In this document: positions 53,182 to 64,000 of the stretch, one piece after another
Numbering within the stretch: the first letter of the stretch is position 1
Layout: each line of letters starts with the position of its first letter
Assembly (NCBI GenBank): GCA_951813325.1
Contig: OX638350.1
Location: 2,213,954-2,277,953 of the forward strand
DNA from: an uncultured Acidimicrobiales bacterium
GTDB taxonomy: Bacteria > Actinomycetota > Acidimicrobiia > Acidimicrobiales > Bin134
Reading direction: 5' to 3'
Length of the DNA stretch: 64,000 nt
Program-made: the position numbers and the translations under genes
The notes under the pieces: model-generated
The model's input: only the letters and a program-made list of their open reading frames with translations
Databases searched by the model: none
Told to the model about the DNA's origin: nothing

Positions 53182-53650
53182 CCTGAGGTTCCCCCCTTTT
53201 TGTGGAGGCATGCTCTATAAGGAGGAGCTATGTCTAGTCCACGAAGAGAGTTCGACGGGGAGTTCTGTGATGGGGCTGTCCGGATCGTCAAAGAGACCGG
53301 CCGGCCGGTGGCCCGGGTGGCCCGGGGCTTGGGTGCGGGCGAGGGCGCTTTGGGCAACTGGGTCAGAAAGGACCGCGCCGAGCAGGCCGGGGGCTGTGTG
53401 GTGATGAGCGGGCCGGGCTGGTGCGGCTGCGCGAGGAGAACGCGGCTTTGCCGATGGAGCGTGATGTGCTCAAACGATCCGCAGTCGTTCGGGTTGACGA
53501 GGTGACGCGGTGACCGCGGAGTTCATCGCCTCCCAAAGGACCGGCCACAGCGTGGCTCACACGGTCGCATGCAGAGTGCTGGGAGTGGCGCCCTCGGCGT
53601 TCCACAACCACCGCAACCGGCCGCCCACCACCACCAAAGACCACTTACAC
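53182..53650 (+). pseudogene. IS3-family element remnant: left end, frameshifted orfA, 5' part of orfB
   Basis: The element end TGAGGTTCCCCCC... starts at 53184. orfA opens at 53230 (MSSPRREFDGEFCDGAVRIV, then WVRKDR), the usual HTH of IS3 OrfA. A frame change in the GGGGG run near 53390 moves the rest (DERAGLVRLREENAAL, ERDVLKRSAVVRVDEVTR stop 53513) to another frame. orfB begins at 53510 with a GTGA overlap (TAEFIASQRTGHSVAHTVAC) and breaks off after about 45 codons; the integrase core is absent. The element is therefore dead. Confidence 0.8.
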
Positions 53651-53715
53651 ACCACTAGGATGATTCCTGCTCGGCGCGGCACTAGCTTGTGACCGACCCT
53701 CCCGGGGAGGAAGGC

Positions 53716-55857
53716 ATGGAACCAAATCGACTTTTCATGCGTTGCTTTCGTGATTGCTGGGGGGTGTCTCGGATGAAGGCAGCAGAAATGAAGGCGGCCA
53801 TTGGGAAGCATTGCGATCGCACTCCAAGAATTGGAGGGGGTCGACTCAGCTCGTGGACGGCGGCGCCGACAATCGCGGTTTTTGTTGCTGCCGCTGTGAT
53901 CTGCGGCCTGTTCGTTGCCGATTTAGGCGAGGCTGCCGCTCAAGATTCGTCCGCCAATGGAGTCGCGAGGGAAGACGTCCAGATCCGCGACAACCTCATC
54001 GCAGACCAAGAATCGCTGCTCAACGCGTACCGCTGCCTGTTCAACGTCGACACCCAGGTGGTCCCCGGCGGCTGCATCGAAGGAAGACCCTCCCGGGGCA
54101 GAGCCAATCCAGGCTCATTCTCGGGCACTCCAAACCAGCAAGGCATCGCGATCCGCGACTTGCTGATAGACACCCAGGAATCGCTGCTCAACGCGTACCG
54201 CTGCATGTTCGACATCGACACCCAGGTGGTTCCCGGCGGCTGCCATAGCGGAATGCCGGCCCAATCCGAACCAGAGCCTGAAACTGACACCACCACTGGC
54301 ACGGCTGCCCCCCAAGACGACCCCACCACACCACCAGTGGAAGTCAGCTTCAGTTCCGCCGCTTACACAGTCGCAGAGGGCGCCACCGCCTGGGTGGGAG
54401 TGGAGCTCGACAGAGCACCCAACCGCACTGTCGTCATCCCGCTCACCACCACATTCCACGGCGGCGCCACACCGGCTGACTTCGACACGCTGCCGGGGTT
54501 TGTAACGTTCGCAGCCGACGAAACCATCCAAGCCGTGTCGTTCACCGTCACCGACGACCAACAAAGCGATCCAGGCGAATCAATCAAGCTCGCCATTGGC
54601 CAAACCCTACCCGACAAAGTCACTACCGATGCACCCGGCCAAACCATCATCAATATCGCTGACACTGGTGTTCCGACCCCTGCTCGATCAGTGATTGACG
54701 TGAGTGTGTTCTACTGCGCATCTGAGAGTCGGGGCTACAATCAGGCCGATTTAATTTATGAAACCGACTTGATGAATGAAATAGTCGGTGAGTTTTATGC
54801 GAGGGAGTCGTCAGGACTCTCGACTTTGAGATTCTTACCCAGCGGCATCGTCACACCCGATCTTGATTGGAACAATTCAACCATCGCCGGCGAAATAGGG
54901 GAAAGGTTGTGGGATCCGAACCATACGGGTATACGCGAGTGCTTTTACGACGCCCAACTACCAGGTGATTACCAACAATTTCTGTTTCTGGTAGACATGA
55001 TTCCAGGCAAGCAGGGTGCCTTTGGATCGCCATATTTCTACGTTCCAAATTTGAGAGAAAGTGTGGGTATGGCCGTGGTATCGACTGTGGAATCACAATA
55101 TGAAAGCTCGTATTTTTGCAGTAACGACGGTGATATCCCACATCGGATACGAGAACAGCCTGGCAATATTCTACCTAACCTCCAATCAAGTTATGGTTAT
55201 ATTGCTTCCTACATAAGCTGTCGATATATAATTTACTGGAACTACTTATTCGTGATCGGTCACGAGCTTGGACATTCGGTGTATGATCTTCGCCACCCTC
55301 CGGGCTGCTCGATTATGGGCAGAGGATACACAAGAAACGACAAGTGCCCGACTATCCACTTGGACAAGGCAATGCAGTTTTCGAATATATTCAATGGACT
55401 CTACGTCGATTGCGTTGACCGCGAGGCATTGGGCTGGCCCGTCGTGCGAGAGGAATGCTCATCGCCTCCCCCACCTGTCAATATCAGCTTTGAATTAAGC
55501 ACTTACGCCGTCGAAGAGGGAACGTCTGCGCAGGTTACCGTGGAACTAGACACCGTCCCGTTCCGCACCCTGACCATCCCGCTGACCTACACCTTCCAGG
55601 GTGGGGCGACAGCCTCCGATGTGGGAACACTGCCAGCCAGTGTCACTTTCGGCCCCAACGAGACCACCAAAACCATAGCCATCCCAGTCAACGATGACAG
55701 CGACGACGAATTCGGCGAGGGAGTTGAGGTCTCATTCGGAACTCCCCTTCCCGCCGATGTCTCCCTCGAGTGGTCGGGTGCCCCTGTCCAAACCACCGTC
55801 AGCTTCTCCGACGCTGCCCCTCCAACCGTCCAGGTCAGCTTCGCATCAGCCACCTAA
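53716..55857 (+). CDS. Secreted metzincin-like metallopeptidase with Calx-beta domains, 3' end truncated
   Basis: 713 residues from the ATG at 53716, which has GGAGGAAGGC before it. A signal or membrane segment lies near 50-70. Two ~33-residue repeats follow (QESLLNAYRCLFNVDTQVVP and QESLLNAYRCMFDIDTQVVP). Then a Calx-beta domain (VSFSSAAYTVAEGATAWVGV), a peptidase domain with HELGHSVYDLRH and a Met-turn-like CSIMG, a second Calx-beta domain, and the start of a third that is cut by TAA at 55855. The third histidine is one residue further than in HExxHxxGxxH metzincins. The peptidase part is visibly AT-richer than the flanks. Confidence 0.75.
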   Translation: MEPNRLFMRCFRDCWGVSRMKAAEMKAAIGKHCDRTPRIGGGRLSSWTAAPTIAVFVAAAVICGLFVADLGEAAAQDSSANGVAREDVQIRDNLIADQESLLNAYRCLFNVDTQVVPGGCIEGRPSRGRANPGSFSGTPNQQGIAIRDLLIDTQESLLNAYRCMFDIDTQVVPGGCHSGMPAQSEPEPETDTTTGTAAPQDDPTTPPVEVSFSSAAYTVAEGATAWVGVELDRAPNRTVVIPLTTTFHGGATPADFDTLPGFVTFAADETIQAVSFTVTDDQQSDPGESIKLAIGQTLPDKVTTDAPGQTIINIADTGVPTPARSVIDVSVFYCASESRGYNQADLIYETDLMNEIVGEFYARESSGLSTLRFLPSGIVTPDLDWNNSTIAGEIGERLWDPNHTGIRECFYDAQLPGDYQQFLFLVDMIPGKQGAFGSPYFYVPNLRESVGMAVVSTVESQYESSYFCSNDGDIPHRIREQPGNILPNLQSSYGYIASYISCRYIIYWNYLFVIGHELGHSVYDLRHPPGCSIMGRGYTRNDKCPTIHLDKAMQFSNIFNGLYVDCVDREALGWPVVREECSSPPPPVNISFELSTYAVEEGTSAQVTVELDTVPFRTLTIPLTYTFQGGATASDVGTLPASVTFGPNETTKTIAIPVNDDSDDEFGEGVEVSFGTPLPADVSLEWSGAPVQTTVSFSDAAPPTVQVSFASAT

Positions 55858-55920
55858 GCCGCTGACAAGAGTGCCTACTCGCCGATCACCGTGCAACTCG
55901 ACACTGCACACCCGGACGCA
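55858..55920 (+). pseudogene. Orphaned continuation of the third Calx-beta domain
   Basis: In frame after the TAA the DNA still reads AADKSAYSPITVQLDTAHPD, the expected next strands of a Calx-beta domain, before running into the IS3 end at 55921. So the peptidase gene was longer and has been truncated by a nonsense change and an insertion or deletion. Confidence 0.6.
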
Positions 55921-55995
55921 CCTGAGGTTCCCCCCTTTTTGTGGAGGCATGCTCTATGAGGAGGAGCTGTGTCTAGTCCGCGAAGAGGGTTCGAC
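55921..55995 (+). mobile_element. Second copy of the IS3-family left end (75 bp)
   Basis: 55921-55995 repeats 53182-53256 almost base for base: the terminal TGAGGTTCCCCCC, the spacer and the first codons of orfA up to GTTCGAC. It then switches abruptly to the 3' end of the paralogue array. The rest of the element is gone. The two copies are in direct orientation and bracket the truncated peptidase gene. Confidence 0.8.
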
Positions 55996-57174
55996 AAAAT
56001 CGAGCCCAGACCGCCCAGAACGCCGAAACCGCCACCCCAGTACAACAACCAATAACAACCCCGCAAAAACCCAAACCCAAGCCCAAGAAAAACCACCAGA
56101 ACCCGCACATTGTTCATTACCGGCATAGTCTATGTATGAGTGTACCCAGAGATCACTGCACACCTCTCCATCACCCATACCTGTATAAGCGGATATGCGC
56201 CCGCTTTGGTGCACTTCGGCTCCGCCGAACACGTGTGATCCGCCCCATACTTTTGCCTGTCCGTGGACTACGGCATCGCCGAACACAGCAGTAGGCCGAT
56301 ACGGAGCTATCAATACAGTATCATCCCATTCATCTTGTAGTGGCGGAGCAACGGTCCCCAACAACTCGTCAACTGCTTCCTCAACCGAACTCAAACTCCG
56401 AGTCCACGTCACAACAACTGGAACACCTGGGGTGCTTTCGTCAGGTACTGTAACTCGTGAGTTTGTCCACAGTTTGCGGGCGAGGTCGTTGTTGTCGAAT
56501 ACGGGGCTGTAGAGGGCATTACCGTCGGCGTCTTCTCCGTTCCAGTGCTGCGAGTGGGACGAGTCGAACACCATGGCCTGGCCGCGCACTTGTGCCCGTC
56601 CGTAGATCCGCGCCGAGTCGAACACCTGCGCCTCGCCGCCCACCTCAGCGCTGCCGGACACCTCAGCATTGCCGAACACCGCCGCGTTTCCGGACACCAA
56701 CGCGTCGTCCGACACTGCGGCGTCGTCGAACACCCGGGCGTTGCCGCCGACCCACGCGGCGCCCTCGTGGGCGAGGTTGCGCCCGGTTTGTATCCAGCCG
56801 CCCACATCGCCGCGCTTGGCCCTCAGTACTTTCCCTCCGTCGGGCAGCTCCGCAACCACGTCGCGCAGCGCCACAACCCGGCACAGCCCGGCCCGGCCGC
56901 CGTGAACACACCCCACACCGCCCCCCGCAACCCCGCCGTCTGAGATCGGGGCGGCCACGCTGCGGGCCACATCGACGCAGTACTTCGCGTCCGCAACACC
57001 GTCGGGGACCACACACGACTCCGGCACAGCCCCGCCCGACCCGCCCGACCCGCAACCCCCCAACACCAACCCCACAACCACCACCACCGCAATCCAGCCG
57101 CTGCTCGGCCCCTGCCGATCTGGCCGCCCCGCGAAGCCCCGGACCGCGCTAAGCACGGCCAGCGGCTTTGCCAT
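55954..57174 (-). CDS. Array paralogue 1: lipoprotein-like beta-helix protein, C-terminus altered by IS end
   Basis: 406 residues from the ATG at 57174. The layout is that of its sister genes: hydrophobic segment ending in the lipobox-like LVLGGC, a Cys-containing region (VPESCVVPDGVADAKYCVDV), hexapeptide repeats of the type AxVxG (NARVFDDAAVSDDALVSGNA), a variable block (~235-290), a second hexapeptide stretch (YRPTAVFGDAVVHGQAKVWG), then CAGSGGFSW, a membrane segment and FRRSGRSGL. The usual GLGFG stop is replaced by DFVEPSSRTRHSSSS, read from the antisense of the IS3 end. Confidence 0.75.
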   Translation of the reverse strand: MAKPLAVLSAVRGFAGRPDRQGPSSGWIAVVVVVGLVLGGCGSGGSGGAVPESCVVPDGVADAKYCVDVARSVAAPISDGGVAGGGVGCVHGGRAGLCRVVALRDVVAELPDGGKVLRAKRGDVGGWIQTGRNLAHEGAAWVGGNARVFDDAAVSDDALVSGNAAVFGNAEVSGSAEVGGEAQVFDSARIYGRAQVRGQAMVFDSSHSQHWNGEDADGNALYSPVFDNNDLARKLWTNSRVTVPDESTPGVPVVVTWTRSLSSVEEAVDELLGTVAPPLQDEWDDTVLIAPYRPTAVFGDAVVHGQAKVWGGSHVFGGAEVHQSGRISAYTGMGDGEVCSDLWVHSYIDYAGNEQCAGSGGFSWAWVWVFAGLLLVVVLGWRFRRSGRSGLDFVEPSSRTRHSSSS

Positions 57175-57202
57175 AGGCAGTTACCACCTCACCCCGCGGC
57201 CA

Positions 57203-58405
57203 TCAACCAAAGCCGAGCCCAGAACGCCGAAACCGCCACCCCGCCACAACAACCAACAACAACCCCACAAAAACCCAAACCCAAACCCAAGAAAAACCAC
57301 CAGAACCCGCACACTTTGCAAAACCAACATAAGCTCCAAGTGAGTGCACCCAGAGATCACCGCACACGTCTCCGCCGCCCATATTCGTTTGGCCAGATAT
57401 GCGCCCGTCCTGGTGAACCCTGGCTAGGCCGAACACGTGTGACCCGCCCCACACTTTTGCCCGCCCGTAGACAACAGCATCGCCGTACACAGCAGTAGGC
57501 CGATACGAAGTCGCTAGAACGTCGTCACCCCACTCGTTTTGGAATTGCGGATCAACTATTTCCAACAACTCGTCAACTGCTTCCTCAATTCTACTCAGAC
57601 TCCTATGCCACTGCACAGTAGCTTGAACACCTGGGTTATTCTCATAAGGTACTGTGACTCGTGAGTCTGTCCAGAGTTTGCGGGCGGGGTCGTCGTTGTC
57701 GAACACGGGGCTGTAGAGGATATTGCCGTCGGGGTCTTCTCCGTTCCAGTGCTGCGAGTGGGACGAGTCGAACACCATTGCCTGGCCGCCCAGTTGTGCC
57801 CGGTCGTAGATCCGCGCCGCGTCGAACACCTGTGCCTCGCCGCCCACCTCAGCGCTGCCATAGACCTCGGCGCCGCCGAACACCGCCGCGTTGCCGTCTA
57901 CTACTGCGTCGCCGGACACTGCGGCGGCGCCGAACACCCGGGCGTCGCCGCCGACCCACGCGGCGCCTTCGTGGGCGAGGTTGCGCCCGGTTTGTATCCA
58001 GCCGCCCACATCGCCCCGCTCGGCCCTCACTACCTCCCCTCCGTCGGGCAGCTCCGCAACCACGTCGCGCAGCGCCACAATCCGGCACAGCCCCGCCCGG
58101 CCGCCGTGAACACACCCGACACCGCCCCCCGCAACCCCGCCGTCTGAGATCGGGGCGGCCACGCTGCGGGCCACATCGACGCAGTACTTCGCATCCACAA
58201 CACCGTCGGGCACCACACACGACTCCGGCACAGCCCCGCCCGAACCACCCGACCCGCACCCCCCCAACACCAAACCCACAACCACCACCGCCAAAACCGG
58301 CCCAAAGCCCGGCCCCCGCCGAAAACAGCCCCCGCCGCCCGGCCGCCCCGCCCAACAGCCCGCGAAGCCCCGGACCGCGCTAAGCACGGCCAGGGGCTTT
58401 GCCAT
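57203..58405 (-). CDS. Array paralogue 2: lipoprotein-like beta-helix membrane protein
   Basis: 400 residues from the ATG at 58405 (MAKPLAVLSAVRGFAG); a GTG 18 nt upstream is also possible. It has the longest signal region of the set (Gly/Arg-rich) before VLAVVVVGLVLGGC. The hexapeptide stretch GDARVFGAAAVSGDAVVDGN, then AAVFGGAEVYGSAEV, suggests a left-handed parallel beta-helix. Variable block: YENNPGVQATVQWHRSLSRI, then EEAVDELLEIVDPQFQNEWG. The tail CAGSGGFSW plus a membrane segment plus WRFRRSGLGFG is intact. No known family function. Confidence 0.75.
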   Translation of the reverse strand: MAKPLAVLSAVRGFAGCWAGRPGGGGCFRRGPGFGPVLAVVVVGLVLGGCGSGGSGGAVPESCVVPDGVVDAKYCVDVARSVAAPISDGGVAGGGVGCVHGGRAGLCRIVALRDVVAELPDGGEVVRAERGDVGGWIQTGRNLAHEGAAWVGGDARVFGAAAVSGDAVVDGNAAVFGGAEVYGSAEVGGEAQVFDAARIYDRAQLGGQAMVFDSSHSQHWNGEDPDGNILYSPVFDNDDPARKLWTDSRVTVPYENNPGVQATVQWHRSLSRIEEAVDELLEIVDPQFQNEWGDDVLATSYRPTAVYGDAVVYGRAKVWGGSHVFGLARVHQDGRISGQTNMGGGDVCGDLWVHSLGAYVGFAKCAGSGGFSWVWVWVFVGLLLVVVAGWRFRRSGLGFG

Positions 58406-58432
58406 AGGCAGTTGCCACCTCACCCGCGGCCA

Positions 58433-59632
58433 TCAACCAAAGCCGAGCCCAGACCGCCCAGAACGCCGAAACCGCCACCCCACCACCACAACCAACACCA
58501 ACCCCGCAAGAACCCAAACCCAAACCCAAGAAAAACCGCCAGAACCCGCACACTTTACAAAACCGCCATAACCTAGGGATGAGTGTAACCATGCATCACT
58601 GCACACTCTTCCGCCGCCCAATATTGTTTGGCCGGAGATTCGCCCGTCCTGGTGAACCCTGGCTGGGCCGAACACGTATGACCCGCCCCACACTCTCGCC
58701 CGCCCATAGACAACAGCATCGCCGTACACAGCAGTAGGCCGATACGGGGCTGCCGAAACGTCGTCATCCCACTCGTCCCGGCTCGCCGGAACAAGCATCT
58801 CCAACTCCGACAACCTGAGTGAATCCTCAAGGCTGCTCAAAGGCCGAACCCACGTCCAAGTGATGTTAGTACCTGGGCCATACTCGTAAGGTATCGAGAC
58901 CAGGGAGTTTGTCCACAGTACGCGGGCGGGGTCGTCGTCTTCGAACACGGGCCGGTAAAGGGAATTGCCGTCGGTGTCTTCTCCGTTCCAGTGCTGCGAG
59001 TGGGACGAGTCGAACACCATGGCCTGGCCGCTTACTTGTGCCCGTCCGTAGATCCGCGCCGAGTCGAACACCTGCGCCTTGCCGCCCACCACAGCGGTGC
59101 CATAGACCTCAGCGCTGCCGAACACCGCCGCGTTTCCGGACACCAACGCGTCGCCCGACACTGCGGCGTTGCCGAACACCCGGGCGTCGCCGCCGACCCA
59201 CGCGCCGCCCTCGTGGGCGAGGTTGTGTCCGGCTTGTATCCAGCCGCCCACATCGCCCCGCTTGGCCCTCACTACTTCCCCACCGTCGGGCAGCTCCGCA
59301 ACCACGTCGCGCAGCGCCACAACCCGGCACAGCCCCGACCGGCCCCCGTGAACACACCCCACACCGCCCCCCACAACCCCGCCGCCTGATACCGGAGCGG
59401 CCACGCTGCGGGCCGCATCGACGCAGTACTTCGCATCCACAACACCCTCGGGCACCACACACGACTCCGGCACAACCCCACCCGAACCGCCCGACCCGCA
59501 ACCCCCCAACACCAACCCCACAACCACCACCGTCAAAACCCGGCCGCCACCCGGCCACCGCCGAACCGGAACCCCCGCCCAACAGCCCGCGAAGCCCCGG
59601 ACCGCGCTACGCACGACCAGCGGCTTTGCCAT
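58433..59632 (-). CDS. Array paralogue 3: lipoprotein-like beta-helix membrane protein
   Basis: 399 residues. Constant parts are as in copy 2. The variable block reads YEYGPGTNITWTWVRPLSSL followed by EDSLRLSELEMLVPASRDEW; the second half is shared almost exactly with copy 7 while the first half is unique. RVCSDAWLHSSLGYGGF near the C-terminus is shared with copy 6. A 17-codon ORF (MAAGEVATAYGKAPGRA) overlaps its stop (TGATG) and runs into the start of copy 2. Confidence 0.75.
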   Translation of the reverse strand: MAKPLVVRSAVRGFAGCWAGVPVRRWPGGGRVLTVVVVGLVLGGCGSGGSGGVVPESCVVPEGVVDAKYCVDAARSVAAPVSGGGVVGGGVGCVHGGRSGLCRVVALRDVVAELPDGGEVVRAKRGDVGGWIQAGHNLAHEGGAWVGGDARVFGNAAVSGDALVSGNAAVFGSAEVYGTAVVGGKAQVFDSARIYGRAQVSGQAMVFDSSHSQHWNGEDTDGNSLYRPVFEDDDPARVLWTNSLVSIPYEYGPGTNITWTWVRPLSSLEDSLRLSELEMLVPASRDEWDDDVSAAPYRPTAVYGDAVVYGRARVWGGSYVFGPARVHQDGRISGQTILGGGRVCSDAWLHSSLGYGGFVKCAGSGGFSWVWVWVLAGLVLVVVVGWRFRRSGRSGLGFG

Positions 59633-59659
59633 AGGCAGTTGCCACCTCACCCGCGGCCA

Positions 59660-60865
59660 TCAACCAAAGCCGAGCCCAGACCGCCTAGAACGCCGAAACC
59701 ACCACCCCGCCACAACTACCAGCAACAACCCCGCAAGAACCCAAACCCAAACCCAAACAAAACCGCCAGAACCCGCACACCCTCCACTGCCAACATAAGC
59801 TTGGACTGAGTGCACCCAGAGATCACCGCACACGTCTCCGCCACCCATATTCGTTTGGCCAGATATGCGCCCGTCCTGGTGAACCCTGGCTGGGCCGAAC
59901 ACGTATGACCCGCCCCACACCCTCGCCTGGCCATAGACAACAGCATCGCCGAACACAGCAGTAGGCCGATACTTAGTTATGCGAATGTCGTCATCCCACT
60001 TGTCTTGGATTTGCAGATCAACGGTTTCCAACAAATCGTCAAGTGCTTCCTCAACTGAACTCAAAGGCAGAGTCCACTGCACAGGAACTTGAACACCTGG
60101 GTTATTCTTATAAGGTATCGTGACTAGTGAGTTTGTCCAGAGTTTGCGGGCGAGGTCGACGTTGTCGAACACAGGCCGTTTGAGGACATTGCTGTCGGCG
60201 CTTTCTCCGGTCAAGTGCTGCGAGTGGGACGAGTCGAACACCATTGCCTGGCCGCCCACTTGTGCCCGCTCGTAGATCCGCGCCGAGTCGAACACCTGCG
60301 CCTCGCCGCCCACCACAGCGGTGCCATAGACCTCAGCGTCGCCGAACACCGCCGAATTTCCGGACACCAACGCGTCGCCGGACACCGCGGCGCCGCCGAA
60401 CACCCGGGCGTCGCCGCCGACCCACGCGGCGCCCTCGTGGGCGAGGTTGCGCCCGGTTTGTATCCAGCCGCCCACATCGCCCCGCTTGGCCCTCAGTACT
60501 TCCCCTCCGTCGGGCAGCTCCGCAACCACGTCGTGCAGCGCCACAACCCGGCACAGCCCCGCCCGGCCCCCGTGAACACACCCCACACCGCCCCCCGCAA
60601 CCCCGGCCCCGCCGTCTGATACCGGCGCGGCCACGCTGCGGGCCACATCGACGCAGTACTTCGCGTCCGCAACACCGTCGGGGACCACACACGACTCCGG
60701 CACAGCCCCGCCCGACCCGCCCGACCCGCAACCCCCCAACACCAACCCCACAACCACCACCACCGCCAAAACCCGGCCGCCACCCAGCCACCGCCGAACC
60801 GGCACCCCCGCCCAACAGCCCGCGAAGCCCCGGACCGCGCTACGCACGGCCAGCGGCCTTGCCAT
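59660..60865 (-). CDS. Array paralogue 4: lipoprotein-like beta-helix membrane protein
   Basis: 401 residues, beginning MARPLAVRSAVRGFAG. It has an extra GAG insertion in the VSDGGAGVAGGGVGCVHGG segment, shared in form with copy 6. The variable block is YKNNPGVQVPVQWTLPLSSV then EEALDDLLETVDLQIQDKWD; the conserved flank is also altered here (HSQHLTGESADSNVLKRPVF). The tail VWVWVWVLAGLL plus FRRSRRSGLGFG is intact. Confidence 0.75.
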   Translation of the reverse strand: MARPLAVRSAVRGFAGCWAGVPVRRWLGGGRVLAVVVVVGLVLGGCGSGGSGGAVPESCVVPDGVADAKYCVDVARSVAAPVSDGGAGVAGGGVGCVHGGRAGLCRVVALHDVVAELPDGGEVLRAKRGDVGGWIQTGRNLAHEGAAWVGGDARVFGGAAVSGDALVSGNSAVFGDAEVYGTAVVGGEAQVFDSARIYERAQVGGQAMVFDSSHSQHLTGESADSNVLKRPVFDNVDLARKLWTNSLVTIPYKNNPGVQVPVQWTLPLSSVEEALDDLLETVDLQIQDKWDDDIRITKYRPTAVFGDAVVYGQARVWGGSYVFGPARVHQDGRISGQTNMGGGDVCGDLWVHSVQAYVGSGGCAGSGGFVWVWVWVLAGLLLVVVAGWWFRRSRRSGLGFG

Positions 60866-60894
60866 AGGCAGTTGCCACCTTCACCCCGCGGCCA

Positions 60895-62094
60895 TCAACC
60901 AAAGCCGAGCCCAGACCGCCCAGAACGCCGAAACCGCCACCCCGCCACAACAACCAACAACAACCCCCCAAAAACCCAAACCCAAACCCAAGAAAAACCA
61001 CCAGAACCCGCACACGTTTCAGGACCAGCAAATCTTAGGGCTGAGTGCACCCAGAAATCACCGCACACATCTCCGCCGCTCATATTCGTTTGGCCGGACA
61101 CGCGCCCGTCCTGGTGCACTGCGGCTCCGCCGAACACATGTGACCCGCCCCACACTCTCGCCCGCCCGTAGACAACAGCATCGCCGAACACAACAGTAGG
61201 CCGATACGGATATGCAACAACGCCGTCGTCCCACTGTTCCCGACTCGCCGGAACAAGCGTTCCCCACCACTCGCCAACTCTTTTCACAACTCCACTCAAA
61301 GATGAAAACCACTCCATTTCATCTGGAGCACTATGAGAATTTTCGTTGGGCACTAAAACCGGTGTATCCGTCCACAATTTACGCGCGGGATCGTCTTGTT
61401 CGAACACGGGCCCATACGCGGGGTTTCCCTCTGGGCTTTCTCCGTTCCAGTGCTGCGAGTGGGACGAGTCGAACACCATGGCCTGGCCGCGCACTTGTGC
61501 CCGCCCGTAGATCCGCGCCGAGTCGAACACCTGCGCCTCGCCGGACACCTCAGCGGTGCCATAGACCTCAGCGTCGCCGAACACCGCCGCGTTTCCGGAC
61601 ACCAACGCGTCGCCGGACACTGCGGCGCCGCCGAACACCCGAGCGTCGCCGCCGACCCACGCGCCGCCCTCGTGGGCGAGGTTGCGCCCGGTTTGTATCC
61701 AGCCGCCCACATCGCCCCGCTCGGCCCTCACTACCTCCCCTCCGTCGGGCAACTCCGCAACCACGTCGCGCAGCGCCACAACCCGGCACAGCCCCTCCCG
61801 GCCGCCGTGAACACACCCGAAACCGCCTCCCACAACCCCGCCGTCTGAGACCGGCCCGGCCACGCTGCGGGCCACATCGACGCAGTACTTCGCATCAACA
61901 ACACCGTCGGGAACCACACACGACTCCGGCACAACCCCGCCCGAACCACCCGACCCGCAACCCCCCAACACCAAACCCACAACCACCACCACCGCCAAAA
62001 CCCGGCCGCCACCCAGCCACCGCCGAACCGGAACCACCGCCGAACAGCCCGCGAAGCCCCGGACCGCGCTAAGCACGGCCAGCGGCATTGCCAT
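60895..62094 (-). CDS. Array paralogue 5: lipoprotein-like beta-helix membrane protein
   Basis: 399 residues, beginning MAMPLAVLSAVRGFAG. The most divergent variable block of the set: NENSHSAPDEMEWFSSLSGV then VKRVGEWWGTLVPASREQWD. WTDTPV at its start and RVSGQTN after it are shared with copy 6. N-terminal lipobox, hexapeptide repeats and C-terminal CAGSGGFSW/membrane/FRRSGRSGLGFG are intact. Confidence 0.75.
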   Translation of the reverse strand: MAMPLAVLSAVRGFAGCSAVVPVRRWLGGGRVLAVVVVVGLVLGGCGSGGSGGVVPESCVVPDGVVDAKYCVDVARSVAGPVSDGGVVGGGFGCVHGGREGLCRVVALRDVVAELPDGGEVVRAERGDVGGWIQTGRNLAHEGGAWVGGDARVFGGAAVSGDALVSGNAAVFGDAEVYGTAEVSGEAQVFDSARIYGRAQVRGQAMVFDSSHSQHWNGESPEGNPAYGPVFEQDDPARKLWTDTPVLVPNENSHSAPDEMEWFSSLSGVVKRVGEWWGTLVPASREQWDDGVVAYPYRPTVVFGDAVVYGRARVWGGSHVFGGAAVHQDGRVSGQTNMSGGDVCGDFWVHSALRFAGPETCAGSGGFSWVWVWVFGGLLLVVVAGWRFRRSGRSGLGFG

Positions 62095-62121
62095 AGGCAG
62101 TCGCCACCTCACCCGCGGCCA

Positions 62122-63321
62122 TCAACCAAAGCCGAGCCCAGACCGCGCAGAACGCCGAAACCGCCACCCCGCCACCACAACCAACAACAACCCCGCAAAA
62201 ACCCAAACCCAAACCCAAGAAAAACCGCCAGAACCCGCACACCTTACAGAACCGCCATAACCTAGGACTGAGTGTAACCATGCATCACTGCACACTCTTC
62301 CGCCGCCCAAATTCGTTTGGCCGGACACGCGCCCGTCCTGGTGAACTTCGGCTCCGCCGAACACGTGTGATCCGCCCCATACTTTTGCCTGTCCGTAGAC
62401 AACAGCATCGCCGAACACAGCAGTAGGCCGATACGGGGCTGCCGAAATGTCGTCGTCCCACTCGTCCCGACTCGCCGGAACAAGCGTTACCGACAACTCG
62501 ACTGCTTCCTCAATTCTACCCAAATACTCAACCCACTCCATATCAAGTGAAATACCTGGGGAATTCTCATAAGGCGTGAATACGGGTGTGTCTGTCCACA
62601 GTTTGCGGGCGGGGTCGTCGTTGTCGAACACCGACCGGTACACGGGGTTTCCCTCAGCTCCCTCTCCAACCCAATACTGCGAGTGGGACGAGTCGAACAC
62701 CATGGCCTGGCCGTTTACTTGTGCCCGCCCGTGGATCCGCGCCGCGTCGAACACCTGCGCCTCGCCGCCCACCTCAGCGGTGCCATAGACCTCAGCGCTG
62801 CCGAACACCGCCGCGTCGCCCGACACCAACGCGTCGCCCGACACTACTGCGCTGTCGAACACCCGGGCGTTGCCGCTGACCCACGCGCCGCCCTCGTGGG
62901 CGAGGTTGCGCCCGGTTTGTATCCAGCCGCCCACATCGCCCCTCTTGGCCCTCACTACTTCCCCACCGTCGGGCAGCTCCGCAACCACGTCGCGCAGCGC
63001 CACAACCCGGCACAGCCCCGCCCGGCCCCCGTGAACACACCCGACACCGCCCCCCGCAACCCCGGCCCCGCTATCTGATACCGGCGCGGCCACGCTGCGG
63101 GCCACATCGACGCAGTACTTCGCATCAACAACACCCTCGGGAACCACACACGACTCCGGCACAGCCCCGCCCGAACCACCCGACCCGCAACCCCCCAACA
63201 CCAACCCCACAACCACCACCACCGCAACCCAGCCGCTATCCGGCCCCCGCCGAACCGGAACCACCGCCGAACAGCCCGCGAAGCCCCGGACCGCGCTAAG
63301 CACGACCAGCGGCTTTGCCAT
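62122..63321 (-). CDS. Array paralogue 6: lipoprotein-like beta-helix membrane protein
   Basis: 399 residues, beginning MAKPLVVLSAVRGFAG. The block YENSPGISLDMEWVEYLGRI then EEAVELSVTLVPASRDEWDD is four residues shorter than in copy 2. The flank HSQYWVGEGAEGNPVYRSVF is also altered. DDISAAPYRPTAV after the block is shared with copy 3 (DVSAAPYRPTAV), and the signal region (PDSGWVAVVVVV) resembles that of copy 1. Confidence 0.75.
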   Translation of the reverse strand: MAKPLVVLSAVRGFAGCSAVVPVRRGPDSGWVAVVVVVGLVLGGCGSGGSGGAVPESCVVPEGVVDAKYCVDVARSVAAPVSDSGAGVAGGGVGCVHGGRAGLCRVVALRDVVAELPDGGEVVRAKRGDVGGWIQTGRNLAHEGGAWVSGNARVFDSAVVSGDALVSGDAAVFGSAEVYGTAEVGGEAQVFDAARIHGRAQVNGQAMVFDSSHSQYWVGEGAEGNPVYRSVFDNDDPARKLWTDTPVFTPYENSPGISLDMEWVEYLGRIEEAVELSVTLVPASRDEWDDDISAAPYRPTAVFGDAVVYGQAKVWGGSHVFGGAEVHQDGRVSGQTNLGGGRVCSDAWLHSVLGYGGSVRCAGSGGFSWVWVWVFAGLLLVVVAGWRFRRSARSGLGFG

Positions 63322-63348
63322 AAGCAGTCGCCACCTCACCCGCGGCCA

Positions 63349-64000
63349 TCAACCAAAGCCGAGCCCAGACCGCCCAGAACGCCGAAACCGCCACCCCAGC
63401 ACAACAATCAATAACAACCCCGCAAGAGCCCAAACCCAAACCCAAGAAAAACCACCAGAACCCGCACACTTTACAAAACCACCATAAGCTTGGACTGAGT
63501 GCACCCAGGCATCACTGCATACTTCTCCCCCACCCACATTTGAATGGGCGGATATGCGCCCGTCCTGGTGAACCCTGGCTGGGCCGAACACGTATGACCC
63601 GCCCCACACTTTTGCCCGCCCGTAGACAACAGCATCGCCGTACACAGCAGTAGGCCGATACGAAGTCGCCAGAACGTCGTCACCCCACTCGTCCCGGCTC
63701 GCCGGAACAAGCATTTCCAACTCCGACAACCTGAGTGAATCCTCAAGGCTGCTCAAATGCCGAGCCCAAAGCACAGGAACTTGAACACCTGGGTTATTCT
63801 CATAAGGTATTGTGACTAGTGAGTCTGTCCAGAGTTTGCGGGCGGGGTCGTCGTCTTCGAACACGGGCCGGTAAAGGGGATTGCCGTCGGGGTCTTCTCC
63901 GTTCCAGTGCTGCGAGTGGGACGAGTCGAACACCATGGCCTGGCCGCTTACTTGTGCCCGCCCGTGGATCCGCGCCGCGTCGAACACCTGCGCGTCGCCG
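63349..64000 (-). CDS. Array paralogue 7, N-terminus beyond the window
   Basis: The C-terminal ~216 residues are visible; the frame is open to the right edge. Its block combines YENNPGVQVPVLW (as in copy 4), SSLEDSLRLSELEMLVPAS (as in copy 3) and GDDVLATSYRPTAVYGDAVV (as in copy 2), the clearest mosaic in the array. The C-terminal tail CAGSGGFSWVWVWALAGLL is intact. Confidence 0.75.
   Translation of the reverse strand, partial: GDAQVFDAARIHGRAQVSGQAMVFDSSHSQHWNGEDPDGNPLYRPVFEDDDPARKLWTDSLVTIPYENNPGVQVPVLWARHLSSLEDSLRLSELEMLVPASRDEWGDDVLATSYRPTAVYGDAVVYGRAKVWGGSYVFGPARVHQDGRISAHSNVGGGEVCSDAWVHSVQAYGGFVKCAGSGGFSWVWVWALAGLLLIVVLGWRFRRSGRSGLGFG

Follow-up and report, generated by a model that had tools for sequence, protein, structure and literature searches.

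The open reading frame at 53689–55857 of the window (the whole stretch of DNA analysed, 64,000 nt from an uncultured Acidimicrobiales bacterium) holds a peptidase-like core between Calx-beta domains, with a zinc motif one residue longer than the canonical one and a base composition unlike that of its flanks. This raises the questions of whether the core is a true metalloprotease domain, to which family it belongs and whether it was acquired separately from the rest of the gene.

Organisation of the gene

The open reading frame encodes 722 aa and, like all its parts, lies on the + strand. Its start is uncertain, with five in-frame candidates (GTG 53689 and ATG 53716, 53737, 53773 and 53788); the start given in an earlier note on this DNA, 53716, is one of the ATG codons, and the end given there, 55920, lies 63 nt downstream of the stop codon at the border of an insertion-sequence (IS) fragment. 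When the translation was read by eye, a hydrophobic signal-peptide-like segment with AAAQ at its end was identified (53839–53943), followed by two copies of RDxLIAxQExLLNxYRCxFxxDTxxVPGGC (53968–54243), from here on referred to as module A. The two copies also appear as a DNA repeat, D15 (53972–54075 and 54140–54243, 83% identity), confirming the duplicated NAYRC unit described earlier. Downstream of module A are a first Calx-beta domain (54334–54666, residues 216–326), the AT-rich, metzincin-like catalytic core of 255 aa (54688–55452, GC 0.47, supported by AF2, VIA and GC), a second Calx-beta domain (55465–55821, limits read from the sequence) and the beginning of a third (55822–55857), recognised by comparison with the relative L031 and ended by the TAA at 55855–55857. 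The first two domains correspond to two stretches matching Pfam PF03160 (E 7.1e-16, scoring 58.7 bits where the cut-off is 27), which makes this a Calx-beta protein. The proposed order, with two N-terminal repeats and two Calx-beta domains around the core, was borne out by the open reading frame list, the DNA repeats and Pfam. Calx-beta domains are enriched in metagenomes of Ircinia sponges, according to the available part of PMC9531527.

Within the core the zinc motif HELGHSVYDLRH (HExxHx6H, 55261–55296) provides the predicted zinc ligands His525, His529 and His536 and the predicted base Glu526. The third His stands 11 residues after the first, the canonical distance being 10, and a Met-turn-like CSIM follows (55306–55317) with its Met 7 residues past the third His, so that both features described in the earlier note can be read directly from the sequence. 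In A1, a profile of 26 cores, the His, Glu, His and His columns are identical in 26/26 rows, but these rows were picked by the motif. The element CVDREALGW (55411–55437), C-terminal in the core, has its Cys and its Trp each in 25/26 A1 rows. Three cysteines of the core, an odd number, are near-invariant: Cys10 (26/26 rows), Cys85 (25/26) and Cys242 (25/26).

The shifted zinc motif in the family

As the initial 33 open reading frames of the family had been gathered by the motif itself, a count on them would be circular, and all frames of at least 60 aa in the loci, with L120–L139 left out, were therefore rescored independently of the motif. At E<1e-12 this gave 38 distinct open reading frames, near-copies included, of which 37 contain the zinc helix and 37/37 of these are compatible with HExxHx6H, in a search where A1, being made of such x6 rows, leans towards x6 matches. 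One of them, L091, has HH in the motif and fits both spacings, while L145 (the L031 gene) reads HELGHTVYGLGH and fits x6. The remaining one is part of a frame in L162 that is interrupted, and the other piece of this frame reads HEIGHSKIGLPH (E 1.7e-9). Just below the limit is L057 from the same genus, which matches nearly all of the profile (positions 5–189, E 1.3e-11) yet has the canonical HELDHNIGVHH; it is a 1571-aa frame (L057:5753-10465, genome G006) with module B (described below), RCC1 repeats and FN3 in addition to its canonical metzincin-like core. Rows weaker than the limit, up to E 0.01, number 31: 23 have the canonical spacing, five are x6, two are without motif and one is L061, which reads HEIGHSVYGFCH (E 3.4e-12). 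The five consist of the second piece of L162 together with L068, L112, L113 and L119; the last four (E 1e-4 or worse) were taken as chance or unrelated matches.

The strict metzincin motif HExxHxxG/NxxH/D is not found in the x6 proteins. Motif position 8 is F (28), Y (4), L (4) or T (1) and never Gly in the 37 x6 rows of the tree, to be compared with Gly in 5/14 x5 tree rows, and position 9 varies between G (16), D (10), Q (3), S (3), K (3), R (1) and A (1). A Met is located at +7 or +8 in 20/37 x6 rows and further away in most of the others. Three x6 members, L051, L052 and L060, showed no Met within 48 residues after the third His and therefore not every member need be active. In the tree of 51 rows, from which ten loci (fragments or motif-only matches) had been excluded beforehand, the x6 rows form one side of a branch whose support, 84/77, is not strong. 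The shift noticed in a single protein is real and family-wide. No report of a family with the x6 motif and a third His was found in the open-access literature searched; HEXXHXXXGXXH/D is given as a general metzincin sequence in the consulted part of PMC5491558.

Predicted fold and zinc site of the core

The AF2 model of the core, built on A1 (pLDDT 82.1, pTM 0.85), contains strands at 2–10, 46–55, 97–102, 111–119 and 124–132 and helices at 19–40 and 178–199, giving in residues 1–250 a predicted twisted sheet, backing helix and active-site helix as in metzincins. The active-site helix, 178–199, ends at motif position 8, and residues 211–230, just past the third His, have a mean pLDDT of 55–57. 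Foldseek against PDB revealed nine matches with E<=0.001, including ADAM10, P-I snake venom metalloproteinases and an archaemetzincin (2x7m), with modest TM-scores by query length (0.27–0.45 overall, 0.36–0.44 for the nine). The best VIA match is ADAM17 (Z 11.8, rmsd 3.3, 180 aligned), and the bacterial glycopeptidase Amuc_1438 also scores high (Z 11.4, identity 20%). Matches between profiles of metzincins and the family are weak, the best in PDB having E 0.0081 and Reprolysin_5 matching 11/26 members (best E 4.7e-4); against profiles of known peptidases the core of the window protein gave no match and its relatives at best E 4.7e-4 (Pfam) and 0.0075 (NCBIfam). The peptidase domain suggested earlier is in this way supported by the predicted fold, with AF2, Foldseek and VIA all pointing to a metzincin-like structure.

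In the igalysin IgAse the helix is half a turn longer, which makes up for an extra residue ahead of the Gly (PMC12237041, in the part available). The predicted helix of the core, running through position 8, fits this precedent, and from this we infer a working zinc site. The name metzincin-like, with a family of its own, was chosen because the clan as described in the same part of PMC12237041 includes the igalysins with the same extra residue. With a family-wide motif, a predicted metzincin fold and the igalysins, which have Asp as third ligand, as the sole precedent found, the core is, judged by its model, an unclassified metzincin family of Acidimicrobiia.

Distribution of the core family

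Searches with the core alone found no relative in Pfam or NCBIfam, among PDB sequences (one chance match, E 0.11), in a pattern search of the named genome collection (16 stretches, none of them a relative) or among plasmids, and viral contigs scanned with the six-row subgroup A2 of the family gave no relative either. The weak Pfam match to TrfA, present in 1/26 members, was taken as chance. In a six-frame search of 99 genomes, the window genome included, the core reached E<=0.001 in 17/22 genomes belonging to the genus and 0/77 others of the order. With A1, matches at E<=0.001 appeared in 8/298 genomes of an order sample, seven in the genus and one (G280) in another family, and at E<=0.01 in 56/395 genomes of a class sample, where G460, G489, G500, G506 and G574, all outside the order, have E<1e-15. 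In the order of G460 14/138 genomes match at E<=1e-6. A phylum sample gave matches in 13/396 genomes at E<=0.01, none of those outside the class reaching E 0.001. Within the samples searched, homologues are confined to the genus and the class.

The six A2 relatives all come from metagenome-assembled genomes, labelled Acidimicrobiia (four), Acidimicrobiales (one) and 'bacterium' (one), and judging by isolate names several are presumably from sponges. The window genome has one clear copy of the family; a second profile match (E 0.0056) was dropped as its 784-aa frame appears to lie on the opposite strand of another gene. No paper on these proteins was found among the open-access matches listed, going by their titles and the beginnings of their abstracts. 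Two further frames were inspected by eye. In L036:6223-8862 the N-terminal part resembles RCC1 repeats in the wrong frame, possibly due to a frameshift or an assembly error, and L083:10333-13623, beside the G280 homologue, begins like a cell-wall-binding repeat, continues with a TolB-like propeller and has a peptidase-like end with HELVHLFGLLD.

Base composition of the core

When analysing GC in 300-nt windows, values of 0.42–0.53 were found from 54500 to 55549 and 0.59–0.65 on both sides. With 50-nt steps, the 11 lowest such windows of the 64 kb start at 54701–55201, all within the core, ranks 12 and 13 overlap it and the 14th is elsewhere, at 59951. GC and GC3 are 0.47 and 0.52 in the core, 0.61 and 0.67 in the upstream part and 0.60 and 0.67 in the downstream part. 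For three core pieces of 150 codons GC is 0.456–0.469, while 243 pieces from 42 other open reading frames (an uncurated, greedy choice of frames of at least 150 aa) have a mean of 0.669, sd 0.040 and minimum 0.536. GC3 of the core pieces, 0.46–0.51, is low without being unique, the lowest non-core piece also having 0.46. The sharp shift in composition noticed before was upheld by both profiles, with no other part of the window as rich in AT as the core.

The same dip is seen elsewhere in the family. In 22/25 genes GC of the core is below that of its own flanks (median difference 0.055) and in 16/25 GC3 is lower, the 25 being the 33 open reading frames minus seven near-duplicates, fragments or odd ones and minus L032, which has no flank. 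A homologue with the same domain order, module A - Calx - core - Calx, was found in another genome (L031 in G018); it is the closest relative, with 54% identity in the core, and reads to 1183 aa. In other relatives the cassette is located directly behind the N-terminal modules and ahead of RCC1 repeats (L041–L044, L046 and L047) or C-terminally behind RCC1 repeats (L033–L035 and L037), architectures that were assigned by Pfam for L037, L033, L043 and one L042 protein and by eye for the rest.

Insertion-sequence fragments and the 3' end

Upstream of the gene is an IS fragment (53182–53629, + strand) with a transposase helix-turn-helix from 53230 (Pfam HTH_Tnp_1, PF01527, E 9.8e-08), presumably IS3-type, which shares ~78% identity with two other copies along 450 nt. 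Its bases 53182–53300 occur at nine places in the genome, the copies at 53182 and 55921 included. The latter is a further fragment of this IS type, from its end (55921–55995, + strand, repeat D16, 95%), in the same orientation as the upstream fragment. Homology to L031 continues past the TAA to ~55902, and as the frame of L031 extends another 600 aa beyond the core, the window protein has lost its C-terminal part; read from this alignment, the window copy is shortened at its 3' end by the stop codon and the IS fragment, with the core intact. Further downstream, on the minus strand at 55954–64000, are seven tandem paralogues of ~405 aa with a start-to-start distance of ~1.2 kb, the last one cut by the window end. 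They have a lipobox-like Cys by eye and parts low in GC3, and two that were scanned gave weak, sub-threshold matches to the YdcK beta-solenoid.

Origin and state of the gene

The earlier note suggested that the peptidase domain may be a separate acquisition. One part of this stands, as the core behaves as a separate cassette, placed before or after RCC1 repeats or between Calx-beta domains. The other part, a recent transfer of the AT-rich core from another lineage into a resident Calx-beta surface protein, we regard as improbable. It would account for the composition stepping sharply at each border of the core, and the two IS fragments of the same orientation on either side of the gene could be read in its favour, but they border the gene and not the core, and the recurrence of the GC dip in 22/25 genes together with the identical order in L031, another genome, weakens the case. 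Neither does the distribution point to an outside donor, with matches in 17/22 genomes of the genus, 0/77 elsewhere in the order and none at E 0.001 outside the class in the phylum sample (n=396). A composite transposon carrying the whole gene was considered on the basis of the shared orientation of the IS fragments, neither of which is complete. No sign of a recent gain of a foreign domain by the window gene was seen; with a low GC that recurs in several architectures, the core looks more like an old cassette that has been exchanged, as far as can be read from sequence comparison.

The shortened 3' end could also mean that the gene is decaying, either as a remnant or as an inactive pseudo-enzyme kept for binding. 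The TAA at 55855 within sequence that is open for 600 aa beyond the core in L031, the IS fragment 63 nt after the stop and the single clear family copy in the genome are what such a course might leave behind. On the other hand no stop codon interrupts the 722-aa frame within the core, where the Met-turn, the Cys and Trp and the His, Glu, His and His of the zinc motif are all retained, for which reason we consider decay unlikely, though it deserves some weight.

The N-terminal modules

Module A is not restricted to this gene. It was found at 21 further places in the window genome (E<=0.01), with L138–L141 being partial (E 1.5e-9 to 1.3e-5), and in seven of the ten of these proteins scanned a Pfam match was obtained (CAP, amidase, trypsin-like, transglycosylase, PD40 and, twice, RCC1), module A in each case preceding the matched part; L124, L127 and L136 gave no Pfam match. 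Eight module A proteins, with frames of 349–470 aa and including L124, form a tandem array at G000:C1:3199928-3207604 (L122–L126 and L128–L130). Among the 99 genomes the module has at least 250 places, in 22/22 genomes of the genus (from at least 3 to 22 in each) and 0/77 others of the order, and in the class sample it occurs in 4/296 genomes, all four of the genus. AF2 models it as two units, each a helix with a short tail (pLDDT 85.4, pTM 0.64; two of the five models ~52), for which Foldseek gave no useful match in PDB (one, E 4.0).

A second doubled module, module B (RCFxxHxFGxxPVPVAK...CYLxLD), takes the same slot and was found in 17/22 genomes of the genus together with one weak match elsewhere (G069, E 2.1e-4). 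By eye, 15 of the 33 family frames have module A, nine module B and nine neither or are cut. On the tree of the cores at least six changes between A and B are needed, weakly supported forks among them, and one eight-row clade with support 100/100 contains both. Ahead of the core other members have SLH (L091, L093 and L094, 3/5 of the loci L091–L095), module B plus SLH (L051) or CWB2 (L083), although for L083 and L093 none of the anchor-repeat stretches is under the E-value limit by itself. SLH and cell-wall-binding repeats are known surface anchors, and because they occupy the same slot in relatives, modules A and B were read as anchors too; module A is probably a surface anchor, slot equivalence being the one argument for this role. 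The idea that the repeats bind a surface is plausible in the sense of a surface module, given the genus-wide distribution, the proteins tagged and the slot. One may go further and propose, tentatively and as something that could well turn out otherwise, that the genus has an undescribed surface-display scheme in which the doubled, Cys-bearing and mutually unrelated modules A and B are interchangeable anchor tags, taking the part played by SLH or cell-wall-binding repeats in related families, with the cassettes behind them swapped by recombination. The cassette stock of such a scheme would comprise the new metzincin family, RCC1 propellers, amidases, trypsins, CAP and Calx-beta.

Proposed function

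Taken together, we find it likely that the gene product is a zinc endopeptidase that is secreted, probably attached to the surface and part of an unclassified metzincin family, with an old cassette as its core and its C-terminal part lost. The protein would be exported by its signal peptide and held at the cell surface by the doubled module A, a helix and then a loop ending in the second Cys, and the Calx-beta spacer would carry the core outwards. There the three His and Glu526 would make up a catalytic zinc site, metal binding, proteolysis and a substrate being presumed. The extra residue Tyr532, ahead of the turn, may lengthen the active-site helix with the third His still reaching the metal, as the igalysin precedent and the predicted helix end suggest. 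The core may have been moved between architectures by the lineage as an old cassette, and the window copy, with its C-terminal part largely removed by the stop codon and the IS fragment, keeps the core intact. Module A, which tags many unrelated exported proteins throughout the genus and for which no Pfam name or PDB match was found, may offer a handle on surface building in these uncultured bacteria.

Comparison with known metalloproteases

Adamalysins/ADAMs (M12B) and matrixins (M10) give the best fold matches and the best of the weak profile matches, and share the zinc motif and the Met-turn with the core. They differ in having the canonical HExxHxxGxxH with Gly, and the adamalysin/ADAM rows of VIA are 7–13% identical to the core; with a motif one residue longer and a window core without reprolysin match, the protein shows neither the canonical motif nor the profile match of M12B. 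Archaemetzincins (M54) resemble the core in fold (2x7m) and in a Cys close to the Met-turn. Their motif HEXXHXXGXXHCX4CXM (PMC3427221, part available) is absent from the window protein, which has HExxHx6HPPGCSIM, and M54 matches 1/26 members (E 0.19). Leishmanolysins (M8), also metzincins, carry an insertion inside the zinc motif that leaves the geometry of the site unchanged; it consists of 62 residues after the Gly, to be compared with one residue ahead of the turn in the core (PMC5572447, in the section consulted).

Closer at hand is a sister group with HELGHxLxWPHS (L096–L107 and L115), which accounts for many of the weaker rows with canonical spacing, comes from the same bacterial class, matches the same profile and, in the proteins scanned, is combined with SLH or FN3, but has the canonical spacing and a match that stops before the C-terminal CxxR..LGW element. 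The group belongs to other families of the class and has Gly at position 8 in 4/13 (5/14 with L117) and SLH in three of three scanned.

The nearest precedent is the igalysins (M64; IgAse/ThomasA of Thomasclavelia ramosa), which according to the accessible parts of PMC12237041 and PMC12402451 also belong to the metzincin clan, have the extra residue before the turn and are multidomain proteins with beta domains. That the core is itself an igalysin with the third ligand switched from Asp to His is nevertheless very improbable. The identical extra residue speaks for it, as does the presence of Peptidase_M64 (PF09471) among the weak Pfam matches, although this model matches 2/26 members at a best E of 0.095, fewer than the Reprolysin and Matrixin models do and too weakly to make them igalysins. 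The M64 clusters hold to HEXXHXXXGXXD, the third ligand being Asp or, in two clusters, Glu, and one cluster lacks the catalytic residues (PMC12402451, same parts). HExxHxxxGxxD with its Asp ligand is found neither in the window protein nor in the family, where the third ligand is His in 37/37 helix-bearing frames. At the turn igalysins have Gly where the window protein has Asp and the family Gly, Asp, Gln, Ser, Lys, Arg or Ala, and the Glu that follows the third ligand in IgAse and binds a structural zinc is replaced by Pro. No igalysin was among the best 50 VIA rows listed, an absence that is not evidence against them. What the core adds to the known systems is an unclassified metzincin family, as predicted, that pairs the igalysin-type extra residue with a third His, and which may serve as a natural test of how far the metzincin motif can be stretched while still holding zinc.
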